Below are positions 16,165 through 43,088 of a stretch of 64,000 nucleotides of DNA, piece after piece. The notes below the pieces were generated by a model, which was not told the origin of the DNA, ran no database searches, and worked only from the letters and a program-made list of their open reading frames with translations. The stretch spans positions 1,156,501-1,220,500 of the forward strand of contig NZ_CP012358.1 in NCBI RefSeq assembly GCF_001267175.1, written 5' to 3'. This stretch comes from Thiopseudomonas alkaliphila (GTDB lineage Bacteria; Pseudomonadota; Gammaproteobacteria; Pseudomonadales; Pseudomonadaceae). The position numbers and the translations under genes were made by a program. How positions within the stretch are numbered: position 1 is the stretch's first letter; every line of letters starts with the position of its first letter.

Positions 16165-16196
16165 AGGATGTTTTAGCTATTTAATGCCTAGCCATG

Positions 16197-16222
16197 CAGA
16201 CGTGGAATCACTCCCACTCTAT
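16197..16222. repeat. left attachment site (att) with a guaA 3'-end remnant
   Basis: 26-bp segment matching 27865-27890 at 23 of 26 positions. On the minus strand 16225-16208 still reads Thr-Ile-Glu-Trp-Glu-stop, the same C-terminus as the intact GuaA. This is the displaced chromosomal 3' end left by site-specific integration into guaA. Confidence 0.88.
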
Positions 16223-16225
16223 TGT

Positions 16226-16555
16226 AAATGGTAGAAAAAACCCGTTAAATTACAACAAGTTACAAAGCAAAGCAGAAGCAATGCCATGAATAGTACCATT
16301 TTCAGTTTAAAAGAGAAAAATATGGTCAATCTACGTTAGGCACATTGCAGCACAGCCAACTCACTCGCCTCGGCTTATACTCGCCGCCCCTTCGTAGATA
16401 AATGGTGAAGGCAGTAGGTCACCCCTGATACAGCCTTGCCGTGCTCATGCTGCCTCAAAGGGCCTATGTTAAACCTACCAGCATATCAAACAAAGCATTA
16501 TCTATACTCCTAGGTTTTGCCTCGGACTCTTATGCGAACCTGTCGGCACAAACAA
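16226..16555. other. left-end non-coding stretch of the element
   Basis: About 330 bp between the left att site and the terminator of the trb operon. I see no credible gene, tRNA or strong repeat. A short ORF at 16441-16674 runs against the terminator and a neighbouring gene and is not convincing. Confidence 0.5.
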
Positions 16556-16579
16556 AAAGGCGGTCACCGGACCGCCTTT
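16556..16579 (-). terminator. terminator of the trbJKL operon
   Basis: Ten-base GC-rich stem AAAGGCGGTC/GACCGCCTTT with an ACCG loop, followed on the minus strand by TT and GTTTG, 17 bp past the last small gene. Confidence 0.85.
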
Positions 16580-16595
16580 ATTCAAACTCAAAGCA

Positions 16596-16820
16596 TCAGC
16601 CGCACGCTTGCCGCAGCATCCCGACCGCTGTCTTGAAATCCTCCTGCGTCGCTCGGCCGGTTTCCGCTTGGTAATACACAATTGTGAACATATTCATCAC
16701 CGCTTCCGACAGTTGGCAAATCCGCTGTGCATCTGCCTGGTCTATGAACTCCAAGGAAGAAAGAATATCAGCTGCTTGCTGTACTGCTCGGCTCGCTTCG
16801 TTAAACTGTTGTACTGTCAT
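16596..16820 (-). CDS. hypothetical 74-residue protein, last gene of the trb operon
   Basis: I do not recognise this protein. It is short, mostly helical in appearance (NEASRAVQQAADILSS, RICQLSEAVMNMF), without a signal peptide or membrane segment, and ends with a Cys-Gly. It has a good ribosome site (GAGGTGAATC) and lies 62 bp after a 66-residue gene, in the same direction as trbJKL, before a strong terminator. Position makes it a likely cotranscribed accessory of the mating-pair genes, but nothing in the sequence assigns a function. Confidence 0.65.
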   Translation of the reverse strand: MTVQQFNEASRAVQQAADILSSLEFIDQADAQRICQLSEAVMNMFTIVYYQAETGRATQEDFKTAVGMLRQACG

Positions 16821-16882
16821 GATTCACCTCATGGGGTGTTGATTGAAAGTGCCGGGCTGGGTGCCACCAGCCCGGTGCGTCA

Positions 16883-17080
16883 TTACTGATTAAGACCAGC
16901 AGCTTCTGCGAAGGGTGATTGCTCAGTCTTAAAGTCCGGTTGTCGCTTGATAGATACAGGCCGCTCCGGGACTGGGTCTTCCCGATTCACAAAGGCCGCA
17001 ACCTCCGCCTCATAATCGACCGTTTCTTCTCCTGGCGTTTCAACAAGGGCCGCAAGTGCGGCCAGGTCTTTAGCTTTCAT
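16883..17080 (-). CDS. small protein sharing C-terminal motifs with the adjacent TrbL
   Basis: About 65 residues, no recognised family. Two segments repeat motifs of the adjacent TrbL: EAEVAAFVNRED resembles TrbL's C-terminal SDEVAAFVNKKD, and QSPFAEAAGLNQ resembles TrbL's VSPFAEAAGFNG. The order of the two motifs is reversed relative to TrbL. The ATG at 17080 has AGGA seven bases upstream; a GTG directly before it is also possible, following the trbL stop at once (TAAGTGATG). The repeated motifs may be short recognition or docking peptides, but that is inference. Confidence 0.65.
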   Translation of the reverse strand: MKAKDLAALAALVETPGEETVDYEAEVAAFVNREDPVPERPVSIKRQPDFKTEQSPFAEAAGLNQ

Positions 17081-17083
17081 CAC

Positions 17084-18622
17084 TTAGTCCTTTTTGTTCA
17101 CAAACGCTGCTACTTCATCTGAATACTCATCAGATACGCCGCTGATGCTGTTGCCGCTGAATTCATGACTGGTTTCGGCCTCTACTGGCTCGTCGATGCT
17201 TGCGCGAATTGATGCCGCTAGCTTGCCACCTGCTGTATCCGCTACACGCTCTTTGAAGCCTTCCGACACTTGGCCACCTATGCCTTTTGCCAGCTCGCTA
17301 GCAGTGCCAACAGCCATTTTTGCAGCATGACCGAAACCGCCGCCATCACCGCTGCCGCTTTTGCCGCTTTCTTTCATGGAATCAGAACTGCCAGCAGCTT
17401 GCTGTCCTTTCATTGTGTCTGCGCCTTGGTCTGGTTGAGTGCTGGCTGAGCCGCCACCTGAGCCACCGGAGTCACCACTTGAACCATTAAAGCCAGCTGC
17501 TTCAGCAAAGGGCGATACGTTTTCACTAGCACCGCTGCCCGCTCCGACAGTTTCAATGCTGACCATTGCGCCTGAACCACTTGAACCACTACCACTTTCA
17601 GCAGCTGCAGCACCGGCTTTTTCGAAAGCAGCTTTAATTGCTGAAGCACCGCCTGCACTTGATGTTACCACTCCCATTGCAGCCTTCCCTGCCATGGCAA
17701 CACCACCCATAGCCATGCCTGCTGCTGCCATACCTGCACCCATCACCGCCCCAGCCCCAAATGAACTACCCGCCGAAGCCGCCGCGCCACCGCCAGGAAT
17801 CAAGCCCGCCATGACATTCGGAATCGTATTGACAAGAATCACCAAGACAAGCGAAACAACAAAAATCACCAGCAGCTCATCCATTGAAGCTTTAGCAGCA
17901 AGACTTGTGTGATAACCGTCAATAATGGATACAGCGATACCGACTAGCAGCGTCATTGTCATTAGCTTCAATGCAATACCTGCCACGCTTCTAAAGTAGT
18001 TCAGCGCAATATCCGAAGTCCACCGCGCACCACCGAAGCCCAGGACAAACACACCGGCATAGGCAAGCACCCAGGCTGTTACAAGGGCTAGGAGCACGTT
18101 AGCAGCGACCACTGCCATGCAAGCAAGAATTGCCAGGGTAGTCAGAAATATCGACAAGTTATCAATTGGACTTGTTACGCTGTACGACTTCGCCGCTTTT
18201 CCAATAATGTCAAACGCAATATCAATGGGCGTTGACGGGTTCAGTCCACGGCCCAGCCCGGACGCTTCCGAGCCTATCGTTCTCAACGAATTGATAATAT
18301 CCATAGCGAAGCTTGGTCCGTTCATCAGCAGCCACCAGAAGAATCCAGTGAACACCGTAAACCTCACAAACTCCGCAAAGAACTCGCCAATGTCGGCCTT
18401 GCGCAAGGCCATCATGCCGAACGTCCAAACCATAGAAATCACAACCAACGTCCAAAACAACCAGGTAGCATGCCCGGAAATCGTTCCCGACCAACTTGAA
18501 CTTGCATTAAGAAATCTATCTGATACCTCATTCAAAACCCCGCCTCTTTCAATCGCTGCAGCTGCAGACTGAGAAAGGAATACCAGCACCGACCCAAAAA
18601 CCAAACGTAATACAGTTTTCAT
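17084..18622 (-). CDS. trbL: TrbL/VirB6-like conjugation channel protein
   Basis: Polytopic inner-membrane component of P-type (IncP) type IV secretion systems. A signal-like N-terminus (LRLVFGSVLVFLSQSAAAA) precedes a stretch of about 300 residues with several hydrophobic helices, including FWTLVVISMVWTFGMMAL and LLVIFVVSLVLVILVNTI, then a Gly/Ser/Ala-rich low-complexity tail of about 180 residues. The ATG at 18622 is preferred: AAGGAG is eight bases upstream, and the protein of about 512 residues is close to RP4 TrbL as I recall it. It follows the trbK-like gene by one base. The rest of the trb system is absent, so it could only act with a helper plasmid's channel. Confidence 0.88.
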   Translation of the reverse strand: MKTVLRLVFGSVLVFLSQSAAAAIERGGVLNEVSDRFLNASSSWSGTISGHATWLFWTLVVISMVWTFGMMALRKADIGEFFAEFVRFTVFTGFFWWLLMNGPSFAMDIINSLRTIGSEASGLGRGLNPSTPIDIAFDIIGKAAKSYSVTSPIDNLSIFLTTLAILACMAVVAANVLLALVTAWVLAYAGVFVLGFGGARWTSDIALNYFRSVAGIALKLMTMTLLVGIAVSIIDGYHTSLAAKASMDELLVIFVVSLVLVILVNTIPNVMAGLIPGGGAAASAGSSFGAGAVMGAGMAAAGMAMGGVAMAGKAAMGVVTSSAGGASAIKAAFEKAGAAAAESGSGSSGSGAMVSIETVGAGSGASENVSPFAEAAGFNGSSGDSGGSGGGSASTQPDQGADTMKGQQAAGSSDSMKESGKSGSGDGGGFGHAAKMAVGTASELAKGIGGQVSEGFKERVADTAGGKLAASIRASIDEPVEAETSHEFSGNSISGVSDEYSDEVAAFVNKKD

Positions 18623-18623
18623 A

Positions 18624-18679
18624 TCAGTACTCCTTGCTCTTAGAGCGATCAACAGGCGTTTCTAACCCCTTATAAATAT
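18624..18679 (-). repeat. duplicated gene tail (trbK end; second copy at 18778-18833, trbJ end)
   Basis: About 56 bp at the end of the trbK-like gene align with the end of trbJ (18778-18833). Both encode YKGLxxPVxRSKSKEY, and both place the codons AAG GAG of Lys-Glu as the ribosome site of the following gene, with the same TAC TGA T ATG AAA junction. Confidence 0.8.
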
Positions 18680-18776
18680 CGGGAATACCTTCTTTCGGCT
18701 GCTCTGGTTCAGGCTTCCCACACCCTGCTAGGGTTGAAGAAAAAACAAGGACGAATATGCACATGATTTTTTTCAT
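18624..18776 (-). CDS. TrbK-like entry-exclusion lipoprotein
   Basis: Fifty-residue lipoprotein too short for usual ORF calling. A signal peptide (MKKIMCIFVLVFSSTLAG) leads to a lipobox LAGC with Cys19 as the lipid-bearing residue, then a short polar tail ending YKGLETPVDRSKSKEY. In IncP plasmids TrbK is a small lipoprotein encoded between trbJ and trbL that blocks entry of related plasmids. Here the gene has the same place and type, one base from trbL and one base after trbJ. Its last 16 residues match the TrbJ tail at 13 positions. The TrbK assignment rests on position, size and lipobox. Confidence 0.8.
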   Translation of the reverse strand: MKKIMCIFVLVFSSTLAGCGKPEPEQPKEGIPDIYKGLETPVDRSKSKEY

Positions 18777-18777
18777 A

Positions 18778-19575
18778 TCAGTACTCCTTACTTTTCGAGC
18801 GATTCACTGGCTCTTGCAACCCTTTGTACAGATGCTCATGCGCTGCTCGCTCGATTGCCTCACGGTCTGCATCCGCCTGCATTTTTGCGCCCACGGCTGT
18901 TTGCTGGGCAAGTAAAATGCCGCGAATTTGCAGGAGCTGGTTTGCCTGCTGGCTGGCAAGCTGATTAGCGAAGCCAAGGGCTTGCATCTGTCCTTCTGCA
19001 CTCTGCGCTGCACCCTGCAAACGCTGAAGCTGCCCGGCATCTTTCTGCAATGCTTCTTGCTGATTACGAACGGTTTTCAGCAAATCATCATTTGCCTTTT
19101 TTCTGCTCTCGCTCGCCAGCTGCCGATTTTCATTCATGGCGTTCCATTCTGCTTCTGTACAGCCGCCGCTGCCGTTGAAACACGGGCTGCTGCGGTAGTA
19201 AGCAACGTCCTGGAACTTGGCTAGATAGTTGTCAAGGCTGCCCAGTCGATTCTGGTAAAACGCTAAAGTGTTTTGAGCCTCGATCAGCTTGTTCATGGTC
19301 GCTTGCGCCTGGTCCCAGATATATGCAGCCGGGGCCATAGTGTTTTGCAGCATGTTTTCATACTGCTGCAGCTGCGTAGCGTATTGCTCAATCTGCTTTT
19401 GATACTGCTCAACTTGCTTCAACGTCTGTGCAACAGACTCAAAAGCAGTCACTGTTGTTTGAATAATGTTTGCAGCATCAATAGTTGGAATACCCGCATA
19501 AATTGGGGTAGTGATGCCAGTTGCGAGCGCAACGGCAAGTGCGGTTTTAGCCGCTAAAATACGAACACGATTCAT
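18778..19575 (-). CDS. trbJ: TrbJ, P-type mating-pair formation protein (VirB5-like)
   Basis: Exported protein of 265 residues. A signal peptide (ALAVALATGITTPIYAG) is followed by the TrbJ hallmark TVTAFESVAQTLKQVEQYQK and YATQLQQYENMLQNTMAPAAY, with long Gln-rich coiled-coil helices through the middle and C-terminus. In IncP plasmids TrbJ is needed for mating-pair formation and also works with TrbK in entry exclusion. It is the first gene of the trbJ-trbK-trbL run in the element. A KorB operator lies inside codons 6 to 10, so a helper plasmid's KorB could shut the operon down. Upstream is 172 bp with a 7-bp inverted repeat. Confidence 0.88.
   Translation of the reverse strand: MNRVRILAAKTALAVALATGITTPIYAGIPTIDAANIIQTTVTAFESVAQTLKQVEQYQKQIEQYATQLQQYENMLQNTMAPAAYIWDQAQATMNKLIEAQNTLAFYQNRLGSLDNYLAKFQDVAYYRSSPCFNGSGGCTEAEWNAMNENRQLASESRKKANDDLLKTVRNQQEALQKDAGQLQRLQGAAQSAEGQMQALGFANQLASQQANQLLQIRGILLAQQTAVGAKMQADADREAIERAAHEHLYKGLQEPVNRSKSKEY
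19546..19558. promoter_or_regulatory. KorB operator inside the trbJ 5' end
   Basis: TTTAGCCGCTAAA, an exact match to the IncP KorB operator TTTAGC(G/C)GCTAAA, with one further symmetric T/A pair outside. It lies in the first codons of trbJ, about 20 bp into the gene, where bound KorB could affect the operon promoter. Confidence 0.85.
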
Positions 19576-19651
19576 ACCGAGTACCTACAGTAAAGTAATT
19601 AGACTTGTTGGCTAATCTGCCCCACATCTGCTGTGGGTTGGGTCTTTACTG

Positions 19652-19674
19652 TGACAGTTCGCCTTTGACTGTCA
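19652..19674. promoter_or_regulatory. inverted repeat upstream of trbJ
   Basis: TGACAGT-N9-ACTGTCA in the 172-bp gap between fitB and trbJ, a candidate operator for the trbJKL promoter. A smaller repeat, CCCACA-N5-TGTGGG, lies at 19621-19637. No -10/-35 pair stands out. Confidence 0.4.
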
Positions 19675-19747
19675 TGGCACCCTGACCTTAGCGACACCGT
19701 TACGCCCGGCCTTATTTATTTAGCTTCGGTGTATGTACTGCTAGTTG

Positions 19748-20173
19748 TTACTCGCTCTCACTCCAAGGGTTAATCACTTTCAATCCCGCTGCTTCAAACG
19801 GGCTTGTATCTCTTGTTGCAACAATAAAACCGCCTTCGTGCGCTGTTGCTGCTATTACTGCATCTGCAGCTGCAATGCCGCTACCGGACTTTTTAGCAGT
19901 TGCAAGCACCTCTGCATAAGCTCTTGTGCATGACATATCAAACGACAACACACGCCCTGCAAACAACGGCAACAGCCTTTCTTCAATCCTTGAACTAAGC
20001 AGTTTTTTACGCTTGCCATCCGGCATCAGCGCAGCACCTGCGCGAATCTCCGCAACGGTCATTGCAGACAAATACAGCGTCTCAAGTGGCTGGTCATTCA
20101 GCCAGGCCAAAACACGCTCATCAGCCTTTGCCCGGAACTGTTCAGATAGAACATTTGTATCAAGCAAAATCAT
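19748..20173 (-). CDS. fitB: PIN-domain toxin (FitB/VapC type)
   Basis: Ribonuclease toxin of 141 residues. The four acidic residues of the PIN active site are visible: Asp5 (MILLDTN), Glu42 (TVAEIRAG), Asp104 (AAADAVIAATA) and Asp122 (VATRDTSPFEAAG). The C-terminal FEAAGLKVINPW closes the fold as in FitB. Its ATG overlaps the antitoxin stop by one base (TAATG). Together they would stabilise the element. FitB is the closest name by sequence style; VapC is the broader family. Confidence 0.92.
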   Translation of the reverse strand: MILLDTNVLSEQFRAKADERVLAWLNDQPLETLYLSAMTVAEIRAGAALMPDGKRKKLLSSRIEERLLPLFAGRVLSFDMSCTRAYAEVLATAKKSGSGIAAADAVIAATAHEGGFIVATRDTSPFEAAGLKVINPWSESE

Positions 20174-20424
20174 TAAAAACTCACAGCCCGTGCCGGTGAG
20201 TGGTCGCGTTCAAAACCTGCTGCTTCTTCATCAGTCAGTTTTACTTCACGCCCGATTTCGCCCAACAAATTGCCCAACTTGACGCGCCCTTCAGGTTTTA
20301 CTGCCTGCTCAAAAATGGCCAGCATTTCCGCCTGGAGTGATCTGCCGTGTTGTGCTGCTCGGACTCGAATCGCTCTGTGTACCTCTTCGGGAACGTCCCG
20401 AACTGTTACTGCTCGCACTCCCAT
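20173..20424 (-). CDS. fitA: FitA-type ribbon-helix-helix antitoxin
   Basis: Antitoxin of about 83 residues. The N-terminal VRAVTVRDVPEEVHRAIRVR is a ribbon-helix-helix DNA-binding domain, and the C-terminal part (EEAAGFERDHSPARAVSF) is the type that inserts into the PIN toxin's active site, as in FitAB. The ATG at 20424 is preferred over an upstream TTG because AGGAGG is eight bases before it. A strong promoter with inverted repeats lies just upstream, so autorepression by FitAB is likely. Confidence 0.88.
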   Translation of the reverse strand: MGVRAVTVRDVPEEVHRAIRVRAAQHGRSLQAEMLAIFEQAVKPEGRVKLGNLLGEIGREVKLTDEEAAGFERDHSPARAVSF

Positions 20425-20457
20425 AATCAAACCCTCCTAATGTAGTCTATGCTTTCA

Positions 20458-20486
20458 ATTATATGAAACGCTTTCAAAGGTAGCAA
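20458..20486 (-). promoter_or_regulatory. fitAB promoter with overlapping inverted repeats
   Basis: On the minus strand TTGCTA, 17-nt spacer, TATAAT. Inverted repeats overlap it: TTTCA-N6-TGAAA around the -10 and GAAA-CGC-TTTC in the spacer, fitting autoregulation by a ribbon-helix-helix antitoxin. The oriT begins about 20 bp away. Confidence 0.75.
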
Positions 20487-20507
20487 GCGCCTTTGTATTT
20501 TTGCCAG

Positions 20508-20632
20508 GCGGTAGCCGATAGCCTCGCAGAGCAGGATTCACGTTGAGCGCCGAAGGTGCGAATAAGTGTAAGTGAAGAGACCACCATGCTTGCATGGTGG
20601 GCCTACTTCACACATCCTGCCCGCTGCTCAGC
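20508..20632. other. IncP (RK2/RP4)-type origin of transfer, oriT
   Basis: The stretch closely follows the RK2 oriT as I know it: GATAGCCTCGCAGAGCAGGA, then GTTGAGCGCCG, AGGTGCGAATAAG, an AGTGAAGA arm, a large inverted repeat (CCACCATG/CATGGTGG with outer GTGAAG/CTTCAC), GTGGGCCTACTTCAC and CATCCTGCCCG. The conserved nic motif YATCCTGY is at 20613-20620, so the cut would fall between 20619 and 20620. In RK2 the inverted repeat is the TraJ site and TraI is the relaxase; neither gene is in this element. Confidence 0.92.
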
Positions 20633-20943
20633 TGTTGTTTCCTCGCAACCCCATTATTCAATCTCTCACTACCTTTGCACTTTTACCTTTCATTTGCCGT
20701 TGCCAAGGCTATAACAGCGTTATAACGCGCTCCAATGAGCACTAGCAGCGCTGTAGTAGTGGCCCAATAGCGCTGAAATAGCGCACTTATAGCGTTCTCG
20801 AGCTGATCAGAAAAATATGAAAAGAACGAGAAAAGCAAGGTTATACGCCAAGAAAAAATCCGTCATGGCCTGTCGCCTATCTGCTGGTGATTATCTGCAT
20901 GCCACCTCCCGCTCAGCCCAATTGCATTTTTCATACAGGCAGC

Positions 20944-20996
20944 CTATTGACACTTGAGGGGCATGGATCAGGCGCACTATTGACACTTGAGGGGCA
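20944..20996. repeat. two TrfA-type (RK2 oriV) iterons
   Basis: CTATTGACACTTGAGGGGCA occurs twice, at 20944-20963 and 20977-20996, 33 bp apart (about three helical turns) in the same orientation. TTGACACTTGAGGGGC is the TrfA-binding iteron core of the RK2 replication origin. Two iterons are fewer than in RK2 oriV. They lie between the oriT and the repC-like gene, in a 788-bp gene-free region. Confidence 0.88.
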
Positions 20997-21040
20997 CAGC
21001 ACTGCAGGCGACCTTGCGTCCCTTCTCTTGGCGTTCAACC

Positions 21041-21126
21041 ATCGGCCTATGGCCGATTGATAAAGCCCAAACGGGCTTTATCCATAAAAGGAGTGGTCAC
21101 TCGCATCCAGCGAGGGATAACTCCTT
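21041..21126. other. cluster of three hairpins beside the iterons
   Basis: Three consecutive perfect or near-perfect stems: ATCGGCC/GGCCGAT (21041-21057), GATAAAGCCC/GGGCTTTATC (21059-21082, loop AAAC) and a nested one with AAGGAGT/ACTCCTT outside CTCGC/GCGAG (21088-21126). They could be replication initiation or single-strand origin structures, or end the rep transcript. Confidence 0.6.
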
Positions 21127-21181
21127 CTGGATACCCTGAAGTATCCTGAATATACTGCTAAACCCTCAAAAAATCGGGCCG

Positions 21182-21234
21182 CTGTGACACGCCTTCGGGC
21201 CCCTGTGACACGCTATCGGGCCCCTGTGACACGC
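21182..21234. repeat. 21-bp direct repeats across the stop codon of the repC-like gene
   Basis: CTGTGACACGC begins at 21182, 21203 and 21224, giving a 21-bp period. The linking part is CTTCGGGCCC or TATCGGGCCC. The second copy contains the repC-like stop codon (21213-21215). Such helical-phase repeats are typical initiator-binding iterons. Confidence 0.8.
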
Positions 21235-21977
21235 TTTACCCTGTTCTCAACGTCTACTTCGATACCGACCTCAGCCAAACCGTTAGCATCCTCTCTTATC
21301 CGCCGCCGATAATTACGCAGGGTCATGCTATCGATTTTTTTACCACCTACAGCGCAAAGCAGTGTGTCCAGATGCCATCCACCAACTGGAACGCTTCTAT
21401 GCGTAAATACATGGCGAGCAACCGCTTGGCTGATTCCATGCTGCAGTCTGGCAATAGGCCCCGGCGAGTAATACAGAGACAAGTCCCTTTCCAGCAAGAT
21501 GACCAAGGCTACGCCCAGCCGCACACGCCATAAATTACGCTCACCACCGGTAAGAGGATCATGGCGAGACATGGGTGACGGAATAACGTGGTCTATCAAT
21601 CCTCCAATGATGCTGCTGCCAGACCGTTCCAGCTCCGGTGTTACAATTTCTACCGTAGCAGCCCGCAGATCAGCCAGTAGTTTCTGGATACGACCATGGC
21701 TGTACTGGTGATCAGATAGTGTTCGACGCAGTTTCGCTGGGTCAACTAGCAGCTCGATACCACCATCTGATATTTCTCGACGCCGTTCAGCTACATACAA
21801 CATGGACTCCACAACATCTGCGTGACGCTGGCCTAGCCTGCCAGTTACGCGGCATCTTCCAAATCCAGTCTCCATCCACTGGCCTGCTCGCTCTCGCGGG
21901 CGTTGGCTGGGCTGATAGATCATCAATCGGGCCTGCAATGCGGTACTGGTTGGAACAACCTGGTTACCAGTTGTCAT
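21213..21977 (-). CDS. plasmid-type replication initiator (RepC-like)
   Basis: Basic protein of 254 residues directly after a RepA helicase gene, overlapping it by 14 bp, in the place of repC in IncQ plasmids. Visible segments are RLGVALVILLERDLSLYYSP, ARLQHGISQAVARHVFTH, GGWHLDTLLCAVGG and a basic DNA-binding stretch MTLRNYRRRIREDANGLAE, consistent with a winged-helix initiator. It is not recognisably TrfA or RSF1010 RepC. The last codons lie inside a series of 21-bp repeats and end Arg-Val-Thr-Gly-Ala-Arg. Its own binding site may be those repeats or the nearby TrfA-type iterons. Confidence 0.75.
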   Translation of the reverse strand: MTTGNQVVPTSTALQARLMIYQPSQRPRERAGQWMETGFGRCRVTGRLGQRHADVVESMLYVAERRREISDGGIELLVDPAKLRRTLSDHQYSHGRIQKLLADLRAATVEIVTPELERSGSSIIGGLIDHVIPSPMSRHDPLTGGERNLWRVRLGVALVILLERDLSLYYSPGPIARLQHGISQAVARHVFTHRSVPVGGWHLDTLLCAVGGKKIDSMTLRNYRRRIREDANGLAEVGIEVDVENRVKRVTGAR

Positions 21978-22815
21978 TGCCGCTCCTCGCGACAGACTTT
22001 AGTTTCGCAGACGGTTGGTATCTCTGACGCTCAAGCACAGCTGGCTTGAGCACACCGCCTTCGTGGCGTCTAAGCCAGCATTCCTTAAAAGGTGCACCGT
22101 AATTTGCTTTGCTGACACCGTATCGGACGAAATACCCTCTCTGGCTATCTTCAACACCCCATGTCTCGGCTTCTGACTGGGTCATACCTGACAGATATGA
22201 CTGCCAGCGGATGTTATCTACCAGAACCGACGATCCCCGACTGGCCTGTTGCTGGTCGCCAGAGCCCGAGGCGGATGCACTTTTGTTGGCATGATGTAAA
22301 AACACAATAGCGCAGCCGGTCTCAGCGGCTATCGCCTCCATGCGTCCAACGACCTGGGACATCGCTCCACTGGCGTTTTCCTCTTCGATATGGAAACGCC
22401 TAAGGGTATCGAGGATCATCAAGCGACGACCCCTTGCAGAGCGTTTTAGAGCATCAAACCAGTTCGCAGCCAAGATATTGGGGCATTTTCCAATTAACGG
22501 CTCAATCAACAAGCCATCGGCCACGATCTGCCTTTGCTCGGTTGTTAGGTATGCACCAAGAGCATGCAGGCGATGGTGGATGGCTGTGGGCGGATCTTCG
22601 GCGGGCAAGTAAATCACCAAACCAGTAGGCAGTTCGCCTATACCCAATAGATCGGGGCCACCGGCAATCTGGGCTGCCAACTGCAAGGCAAGCATGGATT
22701 TACCCGCACCTCCTGGCGATACAATCGCACCTACAGTACCAGCCACCATATTTGGCAAAACGTAATCCAGGGGTGGCGGCTGCTCAGTAAAAGCAGCCAT
22801 AAGGTCAAGTGCCAT
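21964..22815 (-). CDS. repA: RepA hexameric replicative helicase, IncQ (RSF1010) type
   Basis: DNA helicase of 283 residues. PPPLDYVLPNMVAGTVGA, the Walker A loop SPGGAGKS (residues 33-40), VIYLPAEDPPTAIHHRLHAL, the Walker B segment RRLMILDTLRRFHIEEEN and QQQASRGSSVLVDNIRWQSY all match RSF1010 RepA closely as I remember it. The ATG at 22815 (MALDLMAAF) is chosen: it follows the alpA stop by one base, has GAGGGG upstream and gives the RSF1010 RepA length, whereas the longer frame would overlap alpA by 134 bp. IncQ primase/mobilization gene repB/mobA is missing. Confidence 0.93.
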   Translation of the reverse strand: MALDLMAAFTEQPPPLDYVLPNMVAGTVGAIVSPGGAGKSMLALQLAAQIAGGPDLLGIGELPTGLVIYLPAEDPPTAIHHRLHALGAYLTTEQRQIVADGLLIEPLIGKCPNILAANWFDALKRSARGRRLMILDTLRRFHIEEENASGAMSQVVGRMEAIAAETGCAIVFLHHANKSASASGSGDQQQASRGSSVLVDNIRWQSYLSGMTQSEAETWGVEDSQRGYFVRYGVSKANYGAPFKECWLRRHEGGVLKPAVLERQRYQPSAKLKSVARSGNDNW

Positions 22816-22816
22816 A

Positions 22817-23044
22817 TCAGCCCCTCGCATCGCCAGGGCGGGCTGCCTGGATACCTGACGACTTACGTGCATCAATCCACTCTTCGACTTCCGACAAATC
22901 CCATGCAACGTTTCTGGAAGTGAGCGCGATACGGCGTGGAAACTCTCCACGCTGCTCCAAGTTGTAGATGGTCCTCGACGAGAGCGGAATGATCTCTAGG
23001 AGCTTTTTTCTGTTGATGAGTGTTTTGCTAGTTATAGATTGCAT
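22817..23044 (-). CDS. AlpA-family helix-turn-helix regulator/excisionase
   Basis: DNA-binding protein of 75 residues. LINRKKLLEIIPLSSRTIYNL and the NVAWDLSEVEEWIDARK wing are the AlpA (MerR-like) fold found in phage P4-type elements and integrative islands, where such proteins act as excisionases or activators of the integrase. An AGGAGG ribosome site precedes the ATG. It is the first gene of alpA-repA-repC, so excision control and replication may be switched on together. It faces the HTH gene at 23134 across a 90-bp divergent region. Confidence 0.88.
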   Translation of the reverse strand: MQSITSKTLINRKKLLEIIPLSSRTIYNLEQRGEFPRRIALTSRNVAWDLSEVEEWIDARKSSGIQAARPGDARG

Positions 23045-23133
23045 GATCCGACCTCCTGTTGCTTACGGATGCCCTATCCTGCCTAGCAATTCATATAGAG
23101 ACAGCCTTATACTTACCCAAAAAGGTTGACACT

Positions 23134-24111
23134 ATGAAAAAAGAACAAACTATTACTATTTGTGAAGGATGCGACCCCAACATCTCAAAAGCCATCAAAC
23201 GCTTTCAGGGGCGTTGGCGCCCCTACTCCATCGCTTCCCGACGCTACCACATCAGACGGTTAATAAAAGAAATCATTGATCCTGCTGTAGCCAGCTACAT
23301 GAAAACTCTGCCAGCGCACTACTCAGGCTTCGTAGCTGGTGCCGGGACAGGAATAGCCTTCAGTGAGATTATCCGATTAGTCGGATTTGATTCGATGGTT
23401 CAACTGCAGCGACAGTTGCTACGCCAATTCATCAAGACAGAAGACAGGCAGGACTCAAGGGATCAACGCTTTGTTGCAACCATAGAAACACTAACCGGCC
23501 TGGTTTGGGACTGCGCATGCAAACGTCCTAAAAAATCTACTGTCAAAACAGGTGTCAATTTAAACGCGCAACGTCAGCATGGCTTTTGTGATCTATGTGG
23601 AGAACTGACCGAGTTCGCCAGCTTCATGGCAACGGCCGCTGATGATCAAATCAATGACGTAGAGCTGCAAGAACGCAAGAAACTCGAACTCAGCCATCAA
23701 TACTGTGCCGAGCACAAACCTATCCTGTCTGACGGCAGTCGGAACCCTGCCTATCGGCAAGCAAAGCGATCTCTCAAGCAATTCAACCTCGAGCTTGATC
23801 GGCTTAGTCGTCAGTGCGTAAAGCGCACCACCCCGCAAGCAGCCTCAGGCGACCCTCTGGTGGATCGTTATTTCCATCAGTACATCTTGGCTCAGACCTT
23901 ACAACCAGCCGACAAAGGAGAACTGCGCAACCAGGCGCGGCTAATGGTGGACCTGAAGCTATCAGATCGCAAAAAACAAATTCTGATACTTCAATGGGAT
24001 GGGCTCAATCAGTCGGAGATCGCTCGACAACTGGGCATCGAACGACAGACGGTGTCAAAGGCGCTGAAGTCGTTGGCCTCGATACCCTTGCTACTCCAAC
24101 TGAAAAGGTAA
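23134..24111 (+). CDS. putative regulator with C-terminal HTH and cysteine pairs
   Basis: I do not recognise the family. The protein has about 325 residues from the ATG at 23134 (AAAAGG upstream). A longer frame needs a TTG and is less likely. Visible features are ICEGCDP near the start, HGFCDLCGEL and HQYCAEHK in the middle, which together look like a small zinc site, and a C-terminal sigma-region-4/LuxR-like HTH (LNQSEIARQLGIERQTVSKAL). It is the only rightward gene of the element's right half, divergent from alpA. An exact KorB operator in a hairpin lies just behind it. A regulatory role is inference. Confidence 0.75.
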   Translation: MKKEQTITICEGCDPNISKAIKRFQGRWRPYSIASRRYHIRRLIKEIIDPAVASYMKTLPAHYSGFVAGAGTGIAFSEIIRLVGFDSMVQLQRQLLRQFIKTEDRQDSRDQRFVATIETLTGLVWDCACKRPKKSTVKTGVNLNAQRQHGFCDLCGELTEFASFMATAADDQINDVELQERKKLELSHQYCAEHKPILSDGSRNPAYRQAKRSLKQFNLELDRLSRQCVKRTTPQAASGDPLVDRYFHQYILAQTLQPADKGELRNQARLMVDLKLSDRKKQILILQWDGLNQSEIARQLGIERQTVSKALKSLASIPLLLQLKR

Positions 24112-24120
24112 AACACCAAG

Positions 24121-24145
24121 GGAAATTTTAGCGGCTAAAATTTCC
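24121..24145. promoter_or_regulatory. KorB operator within an 11-bp palindrome
   Basis: The palindrome GGAAATTTTAG-CGG-CTAAAATTTCC contains TTTAGCGGCTAAA at 24127-24139, an exact KorB operator. It lies between the ends of the convergent HTH and OLD-type nuclease genes. It could also act as a weak transcript-end hairpin, though no T-run follows. Confidence 0.8.
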
Positions 24146-24297
24146 TGACTCGGATTTAGCCCAAACTCTATCAGACAGAAAACAACCAAGGCAGATGTTC
24201 GATTTACTCATATACATTGAGTCGCAGCCACTCGGTTGATACTGAAAGGGCACGACCCAATGCAAAGTAACGATGCACGAAGAAATCCTTATCGATT

Positions 24298-26163
24298 CTA
24301 CTCAGCTTGTATACCTGGAAGCTTCTTGAGAACGACTGTATTAACGTTTTCATCGATACCGATTTTGAAAGGAAAAGAATCACGTTTAAAGAGAGAGCTG
24401 TGGATTTCAACCTCGATTCGAAGACTCCTGCTATCACTGCAATTACTTAGATGAAACACCCCCGCATACGAGCCAACGGTCGTTCTTGCAATCGCGTTCA
24501 GCTGGTCATCAGTCGACGTATTTTCCATCGAGAGAAAAACTGCGGTTAAAGCAGCCCCAAGCTTAGGCCGAAGTAAAAGATCCTCATCGACACGATGATT
24601 CGGAGCAATTTGCTTCAGTGCTGAAATAACATCAGCGTAGTTGCTTTCTATACTACTTACGCATGACTGGCTGAACGTTGCCGCAACAGCTGCAGCTAGC
24701 TCAGGTTTGCTCTTGTCTTTTGACTTATCATCAAAATAATTTTCGATTGCTCCACGCCGCAAAAAAAAACATCCAAGTTGAGCAAGCGCGTCAATTAACA
24801 CTTGGAAACGGGTAGCAAGACCTGAAGCAGCTTCACCCGCTGATGCATCGAAAGTTTCTGGTTCAGTTAGCAGACGCGCAAGAGTTACACGCTGAAGGCT
24901 TTTCGATTTAGAATCACCACTTGACCAGTCTTCATACGTCTCCGCAGCCGCTGATACAGCAACATTGTGATTCTTGATGAACTCCGACAGATCGGTACGC
25001 AAGTTCCTATCTAAGTCTATGATAGACCTCTGCCCGATGCTCTCAGCAACTGATGATGCTGCAGGCTGGTTACTGAAGTCTCGAACCAGCGTATTATCAT
25101 CCGCTAAAGCATCCAAATCTGCGAGTACAGCAACATGCTTACCCATCAAGCGAAACAGTTTTGCCGCCTCCACGAACTCGCCTTTACCTGTCACCGGTAA
25201 AATCTGAGCGTTGCGAGCCAACAGACGTTGATCCAATCGACTAGCGAGCTGGGTAGCAATGATTTCGTCGCTAGGCCCTTCTACCAATAGCACGCGCTCA
25301 GCAAACATCGCCATACGATGAGTAGCACTGAGTCGAGCTATCAATGCCGAAAGCTTGGTGCGCTTTAGAATATCGTCATTTGTTTTGACTTGTGCAGGAG
25401 CTCTAAACGCAGAGCTGAAGAATGCGATCGACGGCAACTCGCGCAATGACTGCAGAGACACCATAGTCGTCGAATGAGTTGCAATAACAATAAGCTTCTT
25501 GTTCGTGTCGCAAGGATCTCCAGCAACGCTCCGCATCTCCTCAAGAATGAAGGCCTGATGCTGAGGATGCAATGAGATTTCAGGCTCGTCTATCAATAGC
25601 GCACCAATTTCATCATTATGGATGGCTGCTAGCAGGGCAATTAATTGGATGATACCACTAGCCTCATGGTTTGCCGCATACGTACTGCCACCTAGCAATG
25701 AAGCAATTTCAACAGTTAATCCTGACTGCGACCAACTCAACTCAACACTTCGATCAAACAGCTGTTGTAGTCGTGCCTCAACCTTCAGGCGTAGATCTGC
25801 TCTTTGATTTAGTGCTAGCAAAACTCCCGTAATCGACTCTAGATCCCACCACTGACTTTGAAAGTAAGTTTGGCCCACAGCGGCATTCTCTGATTCTATC
25901 GAGTTTGGATGGTCGACCGCTGACCGGTATCGCTCCATCGGGCTAGTTCGCCCTGCCGAGAGAAAATGCACTTTGCGCGTCGCCCCAAGAATCCCTGATG
26001 ATGCCACAGCATTTTTGATCGCACGCAATGCACGTGTTTTGCCTGTTCCGTTCGGGCCTACCAGTATCGTCAAGCCAGGTTGAACCTCAATAACACCCTG
26101 ACTAGGCGCTTGTCCTACCAAATCGATATTAACCACCAAGGGCCAATTTTGATCATCTGACAT
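24298..26163 (-). CDS. OLD-type ABC ATPase/TOPRIM nuclease, likely phage or plasmid defence
   Basis: Protein of 621 residues joining two domains. An ABC-type ATPase has Walker A GPNGTGKT (36-43), Walker B LLIDEPEISLHPQH from 189, and the switch His230 (ATHST). A TOPRIM nuclease domain follows, with Glu295 in LLVEGPSDE, VTGKGEF near 324, the DLD pair Asp349/Asp351 and GAIENY (471-476). This is the architecture of overcoming-lysogenization-defect (OLD) nucleases; stand-alone members resemble P2 Old, two-gene ones pair with a UvrD-like helicase (Gabija). No such helicase is adjacent. A fused PARIS-like system is a second option. Likely cargo of the element. Confidence 0.85.
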   Translation of the reverse strand: MSDDQNWPLVVNIDLVGQAPSQGVIEVQPGLTILVGPNGTGKTRALRAIKNAVASSGILGATRKVHFLSAGRTSPMERYRSAVDHPNSIESENAAVGQTYFQSQWWDLESITGVLLALNQRADLRLKVEARLQQLFDRSVELSWSQSGLTVEIASLLGGSTYAANHEASGIIQLIALLAAIHNDEIGALLIDEPEISLHPQHQAFILEEMRSVAGDPCDTNKKLIVIATHSTTMVSLQSLRELPSIAFFSSAFRAPAQVKTNDDILKRTKLSALIARLSATHRMAMFAERVLLVEGPSDEIIATQLASRLDQRLLARNAQILPVTGKGEFVEAAKLFRLMGKHVAVLADLDALADDNTLVRDFSNQPAASSVAESIGQRSIIDLDRNLRTDLSEFIKNHNVAVSAAAETYEDWSSGDSKSKSLQRVTLARLLTEPETFDASAGEAASGLATRFQVLIDALAQLGCFFLRRGAIENYFDDKSKDKSKPELAAAVAATFSQSCVSSIESNYADVISALKQIAPNHRVDEDLLLRPKLGAALTAVFLSMENTSTDDQLNAIARTTVGSYAGVFHLSNCSDSRSLRIEVEIHSSLFKRDSFPFKIGIDENVNTVVLKKLPGIQAE

Positions 26164-26370
26164 ATGTTATCTCTCGCTATTTTTCGATATGGAGCCCCTA
26201 AATGGGCGATTATGTTTGTACTCACTCATCTGCTCACATTGTTCCCACTCAGCCTAAAGTGCTCGAACAAAAAACGTATCGACAGACGACTGGCCGCATA
26301 CAGTAGTTGTGAGTTCGGCTCTATCTCACCCGACAAGATTTACCGATTCCCTTCGTATTCAGTGGCAATC

Positions 26371-27570
26371 TCAACGAACACTTCCGCTAGTCCACTCATC
26401 AATCATATCTGCCCAATCCTGCAACATAGCCGCTCGCTGCTCCCGGTACTCGGCCTTGTTGTAAACAGCTCTCACGCCCTTTTGTTCATGCGCCAGACAC
26501 TTCTCAATCCAGTCAGTGTTGTAACCAGCCTCATGCAACAAGGTACTGGCAGTACGACGCAGATCATGCGGTCCGAACTTGGCAAGCGATTTACCATCTT
26601 TTTGCGCTGCTTTGTAAGTCCAGTCGAGCACCCTGTTGATGGTGCTGGAAGCCGTCGGCTGCTCAGTGTTGTACCTAGATGGCAACACAAAATCAGAACC
26701 ACCAGCAAAAGTTTTTAGAGCAATAAAAATATCCAGTGCCTGCCGTGAGAGAAACACTAAATGTGGCTTGCGGCGTTTCATCCTTTCCTTTGGGATCGTC
26801 CAAAGCGCTTCAGTAAAATTGACTTCATCCCAGGTTGCGTTATTCAACTCGCCCTTGCGCACCATAGTCAGCAACAGCAGCTTGGCGGCGGCGCGATTTG
26901 TTGGGCTTGTACCCACCCGCTCCAGGTAGTGGTACATCAAACCAATTTCTTCTGGCGTCAACGCTCGGTCACGCGGCTCAAAACGGGCAATACTGCTTGG
27001 TCGCACCAATTCAGCCGGGTTTTCAATCTTCTGTCCGCGCTCGATTGCCCAGCGGAAAACATGAAGCACTACTTCACGCGCATGAACTGCTGTCGCAGGT
27101 GCACCTCGCTCGACTATGCTGTCAGTCAATGCCCGCAAGTCTTCATGAGTAATTTCGCTCAGCTTTTGATTGGAGAATTTCGGCTTCAGCTCACGCTCAT
27201 AAACTCCTCGACGCATATCGCGAGTCGAGTCTGCCATCTGGTATCCCCTTAGCCATTTTTCAGCCCAGGCACCAAATGTTTCCGCATCCTTGACTCGTGC
27301 CTTGTCTCGAGCTTTTTCTCTGGCCGGAGACTTTCCTTCAGCGATCATCTTTTTGGCGTCGCCTAGCTTTTCACGAGCTTCAGCCAAAGTAATGCCACCA
27401 GAGCCATAGCGACCGAAGGTGATGGTTTCCTGCCTGCCATTGATCGAGTAGTTATAACGAAACGAAACAGTTCCTGCGGGTGTAACGGCTGCATAGAGCC
27501 CATCCCGGTCATTCACTTTGTAGAGTTTGTCTTTAGGTTTTAGATTTCGCAGCTTGGTATCGGTCAGCAT
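26371..27570 (-). CDS. int: tyrosine integrase (P4-type, DUF4102 N-terminus), guaA-specific
   Basis: Site-specific recombinase of 399 residues. The N-terminus (LTDTKLRNLKPKDKLYKVND, DRDGLYAAVTPAGTVSFR) is the arm-binding DUF4102 domain. The catalytic domain shows Arg in TMVRKGEL, His335 and Arg338 in HDLRRT, His361 in LAHEQ and the nucleophile, probably Tyr370, in AVYNKAEY. It is 305 bp from the intact guaA and reads away from it, the usual position for an integrase next to its attachment site. Direct repeats upstream look like its arm sites. The guaA 3' end is a known integration site for islands of this type. Confidence 0.95.
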   Translation of the reverse strand: MLTDTKLRNLKPKDKLYKVNDRDGLYAAVTPAGTVSFRYNYSINGRQETITFGRYGSGGITLAEAREKLGDAKKMIAEGKSPAREKARDKARVKDAETFGAWAEKWLRGYQMADSTRDMRRGVYERELKPKFSNQKLSEITHEDLRALTDSIVERGAPATAVHAREVVLHVFRWAIERGQKIENPAELVRPSSIARFEPRDRALTPEEIGLMYHYLERVGTSPTNRAAAKLLLLTMVRKGELNNATWDEVNFTEALWTIPKERMKRRKPHLVFLSRQALDIFIALKTFAGGSDFVLPSRYNTEQPTASSTINRVLDWTYKAAQKDGKSLAKFGPHDLRRTASTLLHEAGYNTDWIEKCLAHEQKGVRAVYNKAEYREQRAAMLQDWADMIDEWTSGSVR

Positions 27571-27595
27571 ATGCCTTGTCCTTCTTCCGTTATCG

Positions 27596-27751
27596 ATACC
27601 ATGCTGAAAACTTGAAAGTTATTGCATATTTTATCTATATAAAACAGTAACTTATAGAAATCCAATACCATGCTCATACAAGAAAGTGCTGCATGGTACT
27701 AAAACTGCTCATGGCATCGTTCGGCGATAGTACCAGTTTTAATACCATGCT
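27596..27751. repeat. candidate integrase arm-type binding sites
   Basis: ATACCATGCT occurs three times in direct orientation (27596-27605, 27665-27674, 27742-27751), with an inverted GCATGGTA at 27691-27698. They fill the 305-bp gap between the integrase start and the right att site, where arm sites are expected. Otherwise the gap is AT-rich and gene-free. Confidence 0.65.
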
Positions 27752-27807
27752 AAAACAGTGCTTACCGCTTCCCTCTATTGCCAGATAGTGCCAAACAAAA
27801 TCAAAAA

Positions 27808-27829
27808 AAGCCCGTAAAATCACGGGCTT
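27808..27829 (-). terminator. guaA terminator supplied by the element
   Basis: Hairpin AAGCCCGT-AAAATC-ACGGGCTT with a seven-T run on the minus strand. It lies on the element side of the right att site, so the element brings its own terminator for guaA. Confidence 0.88.
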
Positions 27830-27864
27830 AGAGTCGCTTAATGCTTTTAGATGCCTGGTCATGC

Positions 27865-27890
27865 CAGACGTGTAATCATTCCCACTCGAT
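27865..27890. repeat. right attachment site (att) overlapping the guaA 3' end
   Basis: 26-bp segment matching 16197-16222 at 23 positions; it spans the GuaA codons Ile-Glu-Trp-Glu, the stop and 11 bp beyond. The recombination point lies within one of its identical blocks, for example CAGACGTG or TCCCACTC. Confidence 0.88.
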
Positions 27891-29441
27891 AGTCGCTGGT
27901 GGTTTACTTGACACATCATAAACCACGCGGGAAATACCCTCGATTTCATTAATGATTCTGCCAGAGACTTTCTCCAATAAATCATAGGGTAAGTGCGCCC
28001 AACGGGCGGTCATAAAGTCGATGGTCTCTACTGCACGTAGCGAAACCACCCACGCATAACGGCGCGCATCGCCTACTACACCCACAGATTTAACCGGCAC
28101 AAAGACCACAAAAGCTTGACTGGTTTTATCGTACCAACCGGCATTGCGTAACTCTTCAATAAAAATATGGTCTGCTTGGCGTAGCAAGTCGGCGTATTCT
28201 TTCTTAATCTCACCTAAAATCCGCACGCCTAGGCCAGGCCCTGGGAATGGGTGGCGATACACCATGCTTTCAGGGAGGCCAAGCTCTACACCCAGTTTGC
28301 GCACTTCATCTTTGAACAATTCGCGTAGTGGCTCAACCAGTTCAAACTTCATATCTTCAGGTAAACCGCCGACGTTGTGGTGCGATTTAATTACCTTAGC
28401 TTTACCGTGCTTAACCGCCGCCGATTCAATCACATCCGGATAAATCGTACCCTGCGCTAAGAAGTCGATGCCTTCAAGTTTGCTCGCTTCTTCATCAAAA
28501 ACCTCAATAAAGGTGCGACCAATAATTTTGCGTTTTTCTTCAGGATCAGTAACACCTGCAAGCAGCCCTAAAAAGCGCTCTTCAGCATCTACTCGGATTA
28601 CCTTTACGCCCATATTCTCGGCAAACATCTGCATCACCTGATCGCCCTCGCCTAAGCGCAGCAAACCATGATCCACAAACACACAGGTTAATTGATCGCC
28701 AATCGCACGGTGTAATAACGCCGCTACTACGGATGAATCTACCCCGCCCGATAAACCTAACAACACCTGCTTATCACCGACCTGAGAGCGGACGGTAGCA
28801 ATGGCATCATCAATAATATTGCTTGGCGTCCATAACGCCTCACAACCACAAATGCGCTGCACAAAGCGAGCTAAAATTTCATTGCCTTGGGTGGTGTGAG
28901 TGACTTCTGGATGGAATTGCACGGCGTAGAATTGACGCTCTTCGTTAGCCATGGCCGCAATCGGGCAGCTAGGCGTGCTGGCTAAGGTGACAAAACCTTC
29001 TGGCAACACCGTAACCTTATCGCCATGACTCATCCACACGTCCAAGTTAGCACCGTCATCGCGAATGCCGTCTAACAACGGACTATTGGCGGTAACTGTT
29101 ACTTGCGCCGAACCAAACTCACTGGCAGCAGAGCTTTCTACCTTGCCACCTAACTGCTCAGCCATGGTTTGCATACCGTAGCACACGCCCAATAGCGGTA
29201 AGCCTAGCTCAAACACATACTCAGGCGCTCGCGGGCTGCCCATTTGGTGCACTGACTCAGGGCCACCGGACAGAATAATACCGCGTGGATCAAACTCACG
29301 GATTACCTGCTCTTCGATATCAAACGGATGAATTTCGCAAAACACGCCTAAGCTGCGAATGCGACGAGCAATCAATTGAGTGTATTGGGAACCAAAGTCC
29401 AGCACGAGGATGCGATGGGCGTGGATATCTTGAGCAGTCAT
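27876..29441 (-). CDS. guaA: GMP synthase (glutamine-hydrolysing)
   Basis: Converts XMP to GMP using ATP and the amide of glutamine. The glutamine amidotransferase domain comes first ([33 protein letters not shown] with the nucleophilic Cys, FHPEVTHT), then the ATP-pyrophosphatase P-loop [16 protein letters not shown] and the dimerisation domain ending in KPPATIEWE. The ATG at 29441 ([16 protein letters not shown]) gives 521 residues; 13 upstream in-frame codons are not supported. The last codons and stop overlap the right att site, so the element restores a full-length gene. It follows guaB with a hairpin between them. Confidence 0.98.
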
Positions 29442-42718: not shown

Positions 42719-42790
42719 CTAGTACACTTTTTATTAGAAATGGGCGAACCTGAGGGCAAGGGCTAGCCTACCTAAATGAAGGTAAGCATG

Positions 42791-42880
42791 TCTTGTTCCC
42801 TACGCGGGGATTACCCCGATCAGGTTCAACGGGATCTGGCAAATACCAATCTCAGCCTCAAGGGCCCCCCGACAAGAACA
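42791..42880 (-). ncRNA. TPP riboswitch (thi box) of thiC
   Basis: On the minus strand the RNA contains the conserved GGCTGAGA, the CCCGTTGAACCTGATC block and GCGTAGGGAACAAG, i.e. the pyrimidine- and pyrophosphate-sensing helices of the THI element, ending about 90 nt before thiC. TPP binding would lower thiC expression. The rest of the 42710-43088 gap has no further recognisable feature. Confidence 0.96.
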
Positions 42881-43088
42881 AGGGCCAGTCTACGCACTCT
42901 GTACCTCAATGAGCAAGCCTGTTTTGTTCTTCACTTCTGTAGACTTAAGTCAAGCGACTGCTTAGTCACTACCAGTTAGCCTTATATTTCTTATAAATCA
43001 GCATAGACTCCAAGTGATTGATGATTGACCAAACGTGCACGCCCCTTTAGCCTTAACGCATTGATCTGTACTTTCAAGGAAGCGATTT

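Follow-up and report, generated by a model that had tools for sequence, protein, structure and literature searches.

An island integrated at guaA

The DNA analysed here (the window) is a 64-kb stretch of Thiopseudomonas alkaliphila, and it contains an integrated island that carries IncP-type control sites. The ETF-QO protein encoded in the flank is 100% identical to proteins of this species. The island comprises 11,676 bp (~11.68 kb), is bounded by two imperfect direct repeats, the right one being the 3' end of guaA, and has a G+C content of 49.8% (48.0% in the remaining window). Its ends (attachment cores at 16212-16219 and 27880-27887) agree within ~20 bases with those given by an earlier reading made from the letters alone (the sequence-only reading). 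The core TCCCACTC is the reverse complement of GAGTGGGA, the recombination site of the island GIsul2 in the available part of PMC9376610. In an empty-site comparison with 37 genomes of one genus, which are not close to the strain, the best guaA places reached 71% DNA identity. From the guaA side, the order is integrase, OLD/GajA-like ATPase, orf325 (on the opposite strand), alpA, repA and repC, followed by three 21-bp repeats, two RK2-type iterons, the origin of transfer (oriT), a FitA/VapC-type toxin-antitoxin pair, trbJ, a lipoprotein gene in the trbK position, trbL, a 66-amino acid (aa) open reading frame (ORF), and the ptaRNA1 toxin, which is paired with an antisense RNA (Table 1).

The sequence-only reading had listed an IncP-type oriT, two TrfA iterons and two KorB operators, and all five were confirmed by Rfam and by exact motif matches. 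Over 20 nt of the nic region, the window is identical to R751. The first KorB operator is located within the first trbJ codons; because R751 and pBP136 carry it at the same place, this copy is inherited. The second lies ~1.1 kb from alpA, where orf325 and the OLD gene converge, and a search of the whole 64-kb window gave no further exact KorB operator. When two to three mismatches were allowed, the match counts for the operator and for the iteron were ordinary for a window of this length (39 of 100 shuffles reached each). The case for the IncP sites rests on their exactness and on the relatives of the island.

Furthermore, R751 TraI, TraJ, TraK, TraG, TrbB, TrbE, TrbG, TrbI, KorB and TrfA had no tblastn match in the 64-kb window (E 1e-6), which agrees with the earlier statement that a relaxase, coupling protein, VirB4-type ATPase and other trb genes are lacking; the island has no relaxase, no coupling protein and no ATPase of the type IV secretion system. 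The trbJ-trbK-trbL slice described in the same reading stood for trbJ and trbL, which passed the NCBIfam cut-offs, while trbK was recognised by position and lipobox only.

Table 1. Features of the guaA island and their positions in the window.
Feature	Position	Strand	Evidence or remark
Left attachment repeat, guaA-distal	16176..16232	.	core TCCCACTC at 16212-16219; imperfect direct repeat with 27843-27900
ptaRNA1-type type I toxin	16596..16820	-	Pfam PF12703, 71.9 bits
ptaRNA1 antisense RNA antitoxin	16814..16882	+	Rfam RF01811, 59.4 bits
66-aa ORF	16883..17083	-	ORF list; no family match
trbL (VirB6-type)	17084..18652	-	NCBIfam TIGR02783, 252 bits (cut-off 128.85)
trbK-position lipoprotein, 50 aa	18624..18776	-	position and lipobox LAGC alone
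trbJ (VirB5-type)	18778..19575	-	NCBIfam NF010452, 360.5 bits (cut-off 286)
KorB operator 1, within first trbJ codons	19546..19558	.	exact TTTAGCSGCTAAA
VapC-type toxin	19748..20173	-	NF047863 (E 4.8e-12), falls short of the curated cut-off
FitA-type antitoxin	20173..20430	-	45% tblastn match over 0.7 of length to GIsul2 FitA-like gene
oriT (traJ-II)	20520..20622	-	Rfam RF01760, 96.3 bits (gathering score 40); nic motif about 20614-20623
RK2-type TrfA iteron 1	20948..20962	+	exact
RK2-type TrfA iteron 2	20981..20995	+	exact
Three 21-bp direct repeats at repC 3' end	21173..21237	.	repeat family D5
repC-type replication protein, 254 aa	21213..21977	-	downstream of repA; 583 homologues
repA helicase	21964..22950	-	Pfam AAA_25, 107.5 bits; 80% identical to GIsul2 RepA
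alpA, probable excisionase/regulator	22817..23044	-	PF05930, 49.9 bits
orf325, conserved helix-turn-helix protein with CxxC...CxxH	23134..24111	+	divergent from alpA
KorB operator 2, between convergent orf325 and OLD genes	24127..24139	.	exact; ~1.1 kb from alpA
OLD/GajA-like ATPase-TOPRIM	24298..26163	-	PF20469, 54.9 bits; partial PADLOC GajA and Old matches
Tyrosine integrase	26371..27570	-	PF00589, 81.7 bits; 89% identical to GIsul2 Int
Right attachment repeat (guaA 3' end)	27843..27900	.	core TCCCACTC at 27880-27887

KorB operators and iterons in related islands

Relatives of the island were collected in two sets, the first of 59 loci (1.01 Mb) via RepC homology and the second via TrbJ; the operator was never the search criterion. 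In the first set, 60 exact copies of the KorB operator were detected in 27 of the 59 loci, which come from many genera, while permuted palindromes with the half-site composition unchanged (119 in all) averaged 0.034 copies and never exceeded 2. The operator was present wherever TrbJ or TraJ is IncP-type (24 of 24 loci) but in only 3 of the 35 other loci, two of these 3 being cut by contig ends (the TrbJ identity limits, 50% for this count and 45% for the 83-locus classification below, were chosen by us). It stood at the first trbJ codons in 23 of 23 trbJ loci, a count unselected for the operator. Among the 23 RepC-found relatives that have orf325, 14 contain another 15 copies at ~29-391 bp from its 3' end, and 8 copies lay 213-371 bp upstream of alpA, in five loci (L018, L020, L021, L029 and L036). 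Of the other 14, three were placed further upstream of alpA (1.9-2.3 kb) and two at the end of traJ, with 9 elsewhere. The copies beside orf325 and alpA adjoin genes of the island and not of the IncP transfer region.

Could the IncP sites be passive leftovers of an IncP fragment that was captured along with trbJ-trbL? The operator at trbJ and, in two islands, that at the traJ end do have IncP counterparts. However, operators also stand beside orf325 and alpA, outside the trb and tra modules. In addition, the operator has stayed exact although the TrbJ proteins that carry it are only 51-98% identical to one another, and although TTA, its Leu codon, accounts for 4.7% of Leu codons elsewhere in these trbJ genes (in this test of 22 ORFs the trbJ genes were chosen by the operator, so that its presence in 22 of 22 is circular and the codon frequencies alone were used). 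The bases around the operator vary while the 13-mer stays exact. A TrbJ search of 398 Pseudomonadaceae genomes found 18 places in 17 genomes, where the operator was present at the trbJ start in 11 of 12 slices compared with 2 of 6 places with trbI upstream (a slice being a place with no trbI match within 1.5 kb; two of the 12 repeat loci L005 and L007). The explanation by leftovers, already disfavoured, is therefore quite improbable in our judgement.

For the palindrome at 24127, a transcription terminator between the convergent genes with an incidental match to KorB was also considered. What counts against a KorB site here is that the palindrome is part of an inverted repeat with 12-bp arms, terminator-like on the minus strand, though its hairpin is weak. 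However, terminator-like matches in the region were at shuffle level (10 against a shuffle mean of 11.5), the perfect arms are 7 bp or shorter in 36 of 62 operator copies, and the permuted palindromes are nearly absent from the relatives. A terminator is thus very unlikely to account for the site, and this candidate was rejected.

Altogether 83 loci were classed (84 less L121, which is on the same contig as L007); L116 is GIsul2 (RepC 100% identical), and the window, L001 and L062 were kept outside. An IncP-type slice was present in 33 loci, a slice of the type of the plasmid pL902 in 12, another trbL in 5, no trb match in 27, and a complete transfer system in 6. In this order of classes, the KorB operator was found anywhere in the locus in 33/33, 0/12, 0/5, 4/27 and 3/6, and the RK2 iteron (at most one mismatch) in 23/33, 0/12, 0/5, 1/27 and 0/6. 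At least two KorB operators were present in 26 of the 33 loci with IncP-type slices. Comparison of the IncP-type and pL902-type slices for KorB gave 3.5e-11 (Fisher test), a value that is not a true probability because of shared descent. The four operator-bearing loci without a trb match are L035 and L054, where contigs end near repC, L041, whose 20 kb contain no IncP slice, and L008, which has an IncP-type TraJ. The possibility that the IncP-like sites are remnants in one strain, which the sequence-only reading had named as a refutation, is thus contradicted by the operator's occurrence in many genera and its absence from sister islands with another helper module.

Genes of the guaA-island chassis (repC, or alpA/repA) were recognised in 27 of the 33 loci with IncP-type slices. 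The remaining six (L118, L119, L120, L124, L125 and L126) have IncP-type slices and 3-6 KorB operators, with no integrase, alpA, repA, repC or guaA match in 12-18 kb, which indicates that the KorB trait is wider than the guaA chassis; another chassis may use the same KorB trick in these loci.

In the 59 loci, shuffled iterons gave 0-5 matches at two or fewer mismatches, compared with 29 for the RK2 iteron; iteron positions in the relatives were assigned by eye, and the match in L016 lies away from the repC-oriT interval. The traJ-II model matched an oriT in 22 of 22 island loci tested, which are a subset of all loci, and also in the R751 control. No exact copy of the KorA operator was present in the 59 loci, while the positive controls R751 and pBP136 gave two exact copies each; KorC-like sites numbered 0 in the same loci, with a pattern that had no positive control. 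In the stretches searched, these loci had no tblastn match to R751 KorB, TrfA, TrbB, TrbE, TrbG or TrbI, and for TraG only matches of 23-26% in 3 loci. Among viral contigs, four stretches matched the TrbJ pattern, none of them encoding a relative.

A one-mismatch KorA-like site, GTTTAGCTTAAC, was observed beside the alpA-side KorB operators of one lineage (L020 at 8769, L021 at 8769, L029 at 8779 and L036 at 858), and it could be due to chance or shared descent.

Sister islands with a pL902-type slice

The 12 loci with pL902-type slices resemble the island in the other modules (alpA in 12, the same integrase type in 10, and the same repC family in 7). Their TrbJ is closest to that of ~35-kb plasmids such as pL902, with 67-78% identity in those compared. 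Beside its rep gene, pL902 has a six-copy iteron array (three copies exact), and the exact 16-bp iteron was found between repC and the trb genes in three of the 12 sisters (L040, L107 and L111). It is also present between repC and trb in L038, classed under other trbL, and in L034, whose contig ends before any trb gene, and in 0 of 33 loci with IncP-type slices. Shuffled 16-mers gave 0-2 matches in the 59 loci at two or fewer mismatches, against 5 observed. As in the IncP case, this suggests that an island can have iteron and channel subunits of one and the same plasmid. The sample is modest, and 9 of the 12 sisters have no exact pL902 iteron; their helper may be another relative. A KorB-like palindrome common to the sisters and pL902 was not found, the iteron and a short repeat being all that they share. 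This repeat, GCGATTCTATGCGA, was observed at L038 15853-15995, L040 15113-15235, and L066 26981 and 31187; it is common to pL902, where it lies near the iterons and near traK, and two sister islands, and is possibly part of an oriT or origin region.

The sisters also bear on whether the main mobiliser is a different MOB-P/MPF-T plasmid with a similar oriT, the IncP sites reflecting a past helper. The same oriT type does occur in the pL902-type sisters L040 and L044. However, KorB operators and RK2 iterons track the IncP-type slice and are absent from all 12 pL902-type sisters, and the 20-mer at nic is identical to that of R751, so that we consider another main mobiliser improbable.

Comparison with known mobile elements

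Judged by its sequence, the element is a divergent relative or variant of GIsul2 and not GIsul2 itself. Both GIsul2/GI12K and the window island occupy guaA, have their shared genes in the same order (integrase 89%, alpA 85%, repA 80% and trbJ 68% identical), and carry the ptaRNA1 toxin, an oriT and the KorB operator in trbJ, together with a trbJ-trbK-trbL slice (trbK by position in the window) without relaxase or other transfer genes; GIsul2 has one iteron. In contrast, the RepC proteins differ, with no tblastn match either way: that of GIsul2 is IncQ-type, and that of the window belongs to the family shared by the 59 relatives. Beyond what GIsul2 has, the window island contains orf325, the OLD gene and a VapC-type toxin, as well as one more KorB operator and one more iteron. 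Pfam/NCBIfam annotation of the island recognised none of sul2, CR2 and ars.

In the available part of PMC5704250 (Guedon 2017), GIsul2 is listed without a relaxase, with TrbJ, TrbK and TrbL, and with the helper 'Proposed: IncP plasmids', and it is suggested to reshape the mating channel of its helper. The accessible text of PMC9376610 reports that excision and integration of GIsul2 depend on the integrase and are raised by AlpA, and repeats the IncP helper as a suggestion; KorB, oriT, iteron and TrfA have 0 occurrences in that text. The sequence-only reading, which was not aware of a described IncP-dependent counterpart, is thus contradicted on this point, since an IncP helper and a reshaped channel are in print for GIsul2 (PMC5704250, PMC9376610, both in part); its central idea was already published as a proposal for this island family. 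That reading was right in outline, but it overstated the novelty of the helper choice and understated the conservation of the IncP sites. In the open-licence literature, no paper with both KorB and GIsul2 was found among the matches listed. As far as the searches reach, what is new relative to this literature is the widespread occurrence of exact IncP partition and replication sites in islands, their absence from the sisters, and the iteron of a second plasmid in some of these sisters.

The element appears to work like SGI1, although it is not a member of the SGI1 family. Like SGI1, it has no relaxase (for SGI1, the excerpt of PMC5704250), its own oriT and its own channel subunits, and both have two copies of a ParB/KorB-type site of the helper, located at the replication module and at the channel operon, respectively (PMC10954446, in part). 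According to the same part of PMC10954446, the parS mimics of SGI1 lie upstream of S004-repA and upstream of traHS, bind the ParB of IncC, stabilise SGI1 and destabilise the IncC plasmid. Unlike SGI1, which is integrated at trmE, uses an IncC helper and has AcaCD-activated promoters, the window element is at guaA with IncP sites, and the genes are unrelated; no SGI1-type gene was recognised among the annotated window proteins, AcaCD sites not having been searched for. The functions of SGI1 have been shown by experiment, while the window element is known from sequence alone.

The IncP islands at guaA in Brucella and Burkholderia glumae (PMC5704250, in part) share the site, trbJ-trbK-trbL and the IncP relation, but they encode a MobP relaxase and TraJ/TraK, whereas R751 TraI, TraJ and TraK have no tblastn match in the window. 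Another similar element is the mobilizable IncP-typed plasmid pF010_2 (L061), with a trbJ-K-L slice, ptaRNA1 toxin, KorB operators and TrfA-type iterons; it differs in having its own traI/traJ/traK and parA and in not being integrated at guaA. Its KorB operators include copies near parA, one exact KorA operator is present, and it may be viewed as a plasmid counterpart of the islands.

Proposed mechanism

We propose, with a probability of about 0.62, that IncP plasmids are the likely mobilisers of this GIsul2-related island, which would be loaded with KorB, and partitioned with, and in competition with, its helper. Int and AlpA would excise the island (excision is in print for GIsul2), and RepA and RepC would maintain the excised circle. 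TraI and TraJ of the helper would nick the island oriT, and the helper channel would carry the island, whose TrbJ, trbK-position lipoprotein and TrbL would substitute for the helper's own subunits. In the parts of the sources available, KorB is described as a global regulator of the IncP plasmid RP4 that also serves as its ParB-type partition protein (PMC10954446), and as loading on its operator as a cytidine triphosphate-dependent sliding clamp, with KorA as the lock in long-range silencing (PMC11790492). Given this partition role of KorB in IncP plasmids, both operators would act as borrowed centromeres on which helper KorB loads, and the island would share and titrate the helper's partition apparatus. 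In a second role, the operator at trbJ would also subject the channel genes to control by KorB. Helper TrfA on the iterons beside the island origin would tie the copy numbers together or add incompatibility.

Alternatively, the KorB operators may be mainly transcriptional switches, by which KorB of an established helper silences the excision, replication and channel genes, leaving the island active only when a helper freshly arrives. The operators close upstream of alpA in five loci, four of them with the one-mismatch KorA-like site, are consistent with such switches, as is the silencing of promoters over more than 1 kb by RK2 KorB with KorA (PMC11790492, in part). However, both genes that flank operator 2 in the window have their 3' ends towards it, so that a promoter role of this copy is unlikely, and an exact KorA operator is missing from the 59 loci, although KorA is the clamp-locking partner of long-range silencing. 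We regard the switches as possible but less probable. The SGI1-like layout, the lack of an exact KorA operator in the 59 loci and the convergent placement favour partition hijack and titration. The sequence-only reading had proposed detection of the helper through KorB; because KorB is the IncP partition protein and operator 2 lies between convergent genes away from alpA, partition hijack or KorB titration fits operator 2 better than simple detection. Its proposals of IncP dependence and of an analogy to SGI1 are supported by the sequence comparisons.

Several observations weigh against partition hijack or titration. The loci share descent, and the counts are not independent events. GIsul2 has a single KorB operator (in trbJ), and a single one is found in 7 of the 33 loci with IncP-type slices; a second site is therefore dispensable. 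Nine of the 23 relatives with orf325 have no operator within 450 bp of it, some of them as a result of contig ends, and 10 of the 33 IncP-slice loci have no RK2 iteron at one or fewer mismatches. The trbJ operator is inherited from IncP, and therefore is by itself no sign of recruitment.

A broader interpretation, which as a whole we consider an even bet, is that the guaA islands are plasmid satellites with swappable helper-docking cassettes on one integrase-AlpA-RepA chassis. This chassis would take up the oriT, channel subunits and iteron of each prey plasmid and, for IncP, its partition operator. The island would ride on, divide with and drive out the plasmid, and the IncP version would have reinvented the partition hijack of SGI1 against IncC. 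GIsul2-type islands carry sul2 and arsenic resistance in the literature, where their cell-to-cell transfer has been proposed; the conserved IncP partition and replication sites offer a concrete mechanism and point to the helper. They further suggest that theft of the helper centromere evolved independently in the satellites of IncC and IncP, and the sisters with the iteron of another plasmid suggest that the choice of helper can be read from sequence.

The trb slice, oriT and relaxase

For trbL, an ATG start at 18622 is a better fit to the overlap with trbK. The similarity of the trbK-position lipoprotein to R751 TrbK is confined to the leader, and it has no NCBIfam TrbK match. The C-terminal tails of TrbJ and this lipoprotein are close to copies of each other (18616-18679 and 18770-18833, 78% DNA identity over 64 nt); a TrbJ-like tail that replaces the usual C-terminus of TrbK could alter entry exclusion. 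The 66-aa ORF after trbL resembles by eye the C-terminus of TrbL (17084-17510); with its motifs AAFVN and PFAEAAG, it looks like a TrbL tail that was duplicated or split off.

Seven relatives have a long match to IncP-type TraI (62-72% identity), and L004 has TraJ plus a short TraI fragment only. The TraI-bearing relatives suggest that the loss of relaxase is a derived state. Two islands, L032 (4336-4438 and 8818-8921) and L039 (7536-7638 and 12010-12113), each contain two complete oriT copies in opposite orientation, the first of which is near the orf325-side KorB operator.

Integration, replication and cargo genes

Mobilisation of GIsul2 is raised by expression of AlpA in the available part of PMC9376610. 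The true start of repA is probably nearer to 22820. The name repC is based on position and on relatives that adjoin RepA on small plasmids; RepC was also considered as a TrfA homologue and rejected, R751 TrfA having no tblastn match in the window and RepC no Pfam match. The 21-bp repeats at the 3' end of repC are possible iterons of the element's own origin.

The orf325 product is a candidate master regulator. Its AlphaFold model has a mean predicted local distance difference test score (pLDDT) of 81.8 and a predicted template modelling score (pTM) of 0.52, and its fold has no PDB match at E <= 0.001. The OLD/GajA-like protein, encoded between the integrase gene and orf325, is a probable anti-phage defence cargo. 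The FitA-type antitoxin has no NCBIfam match, and its label is based on likeness to the neighbour gene in GIsul2. In the chromosomal part of the window, a thiamine pyrophosphate riboswitch was identified at 42780-42881 (81.1 bits).

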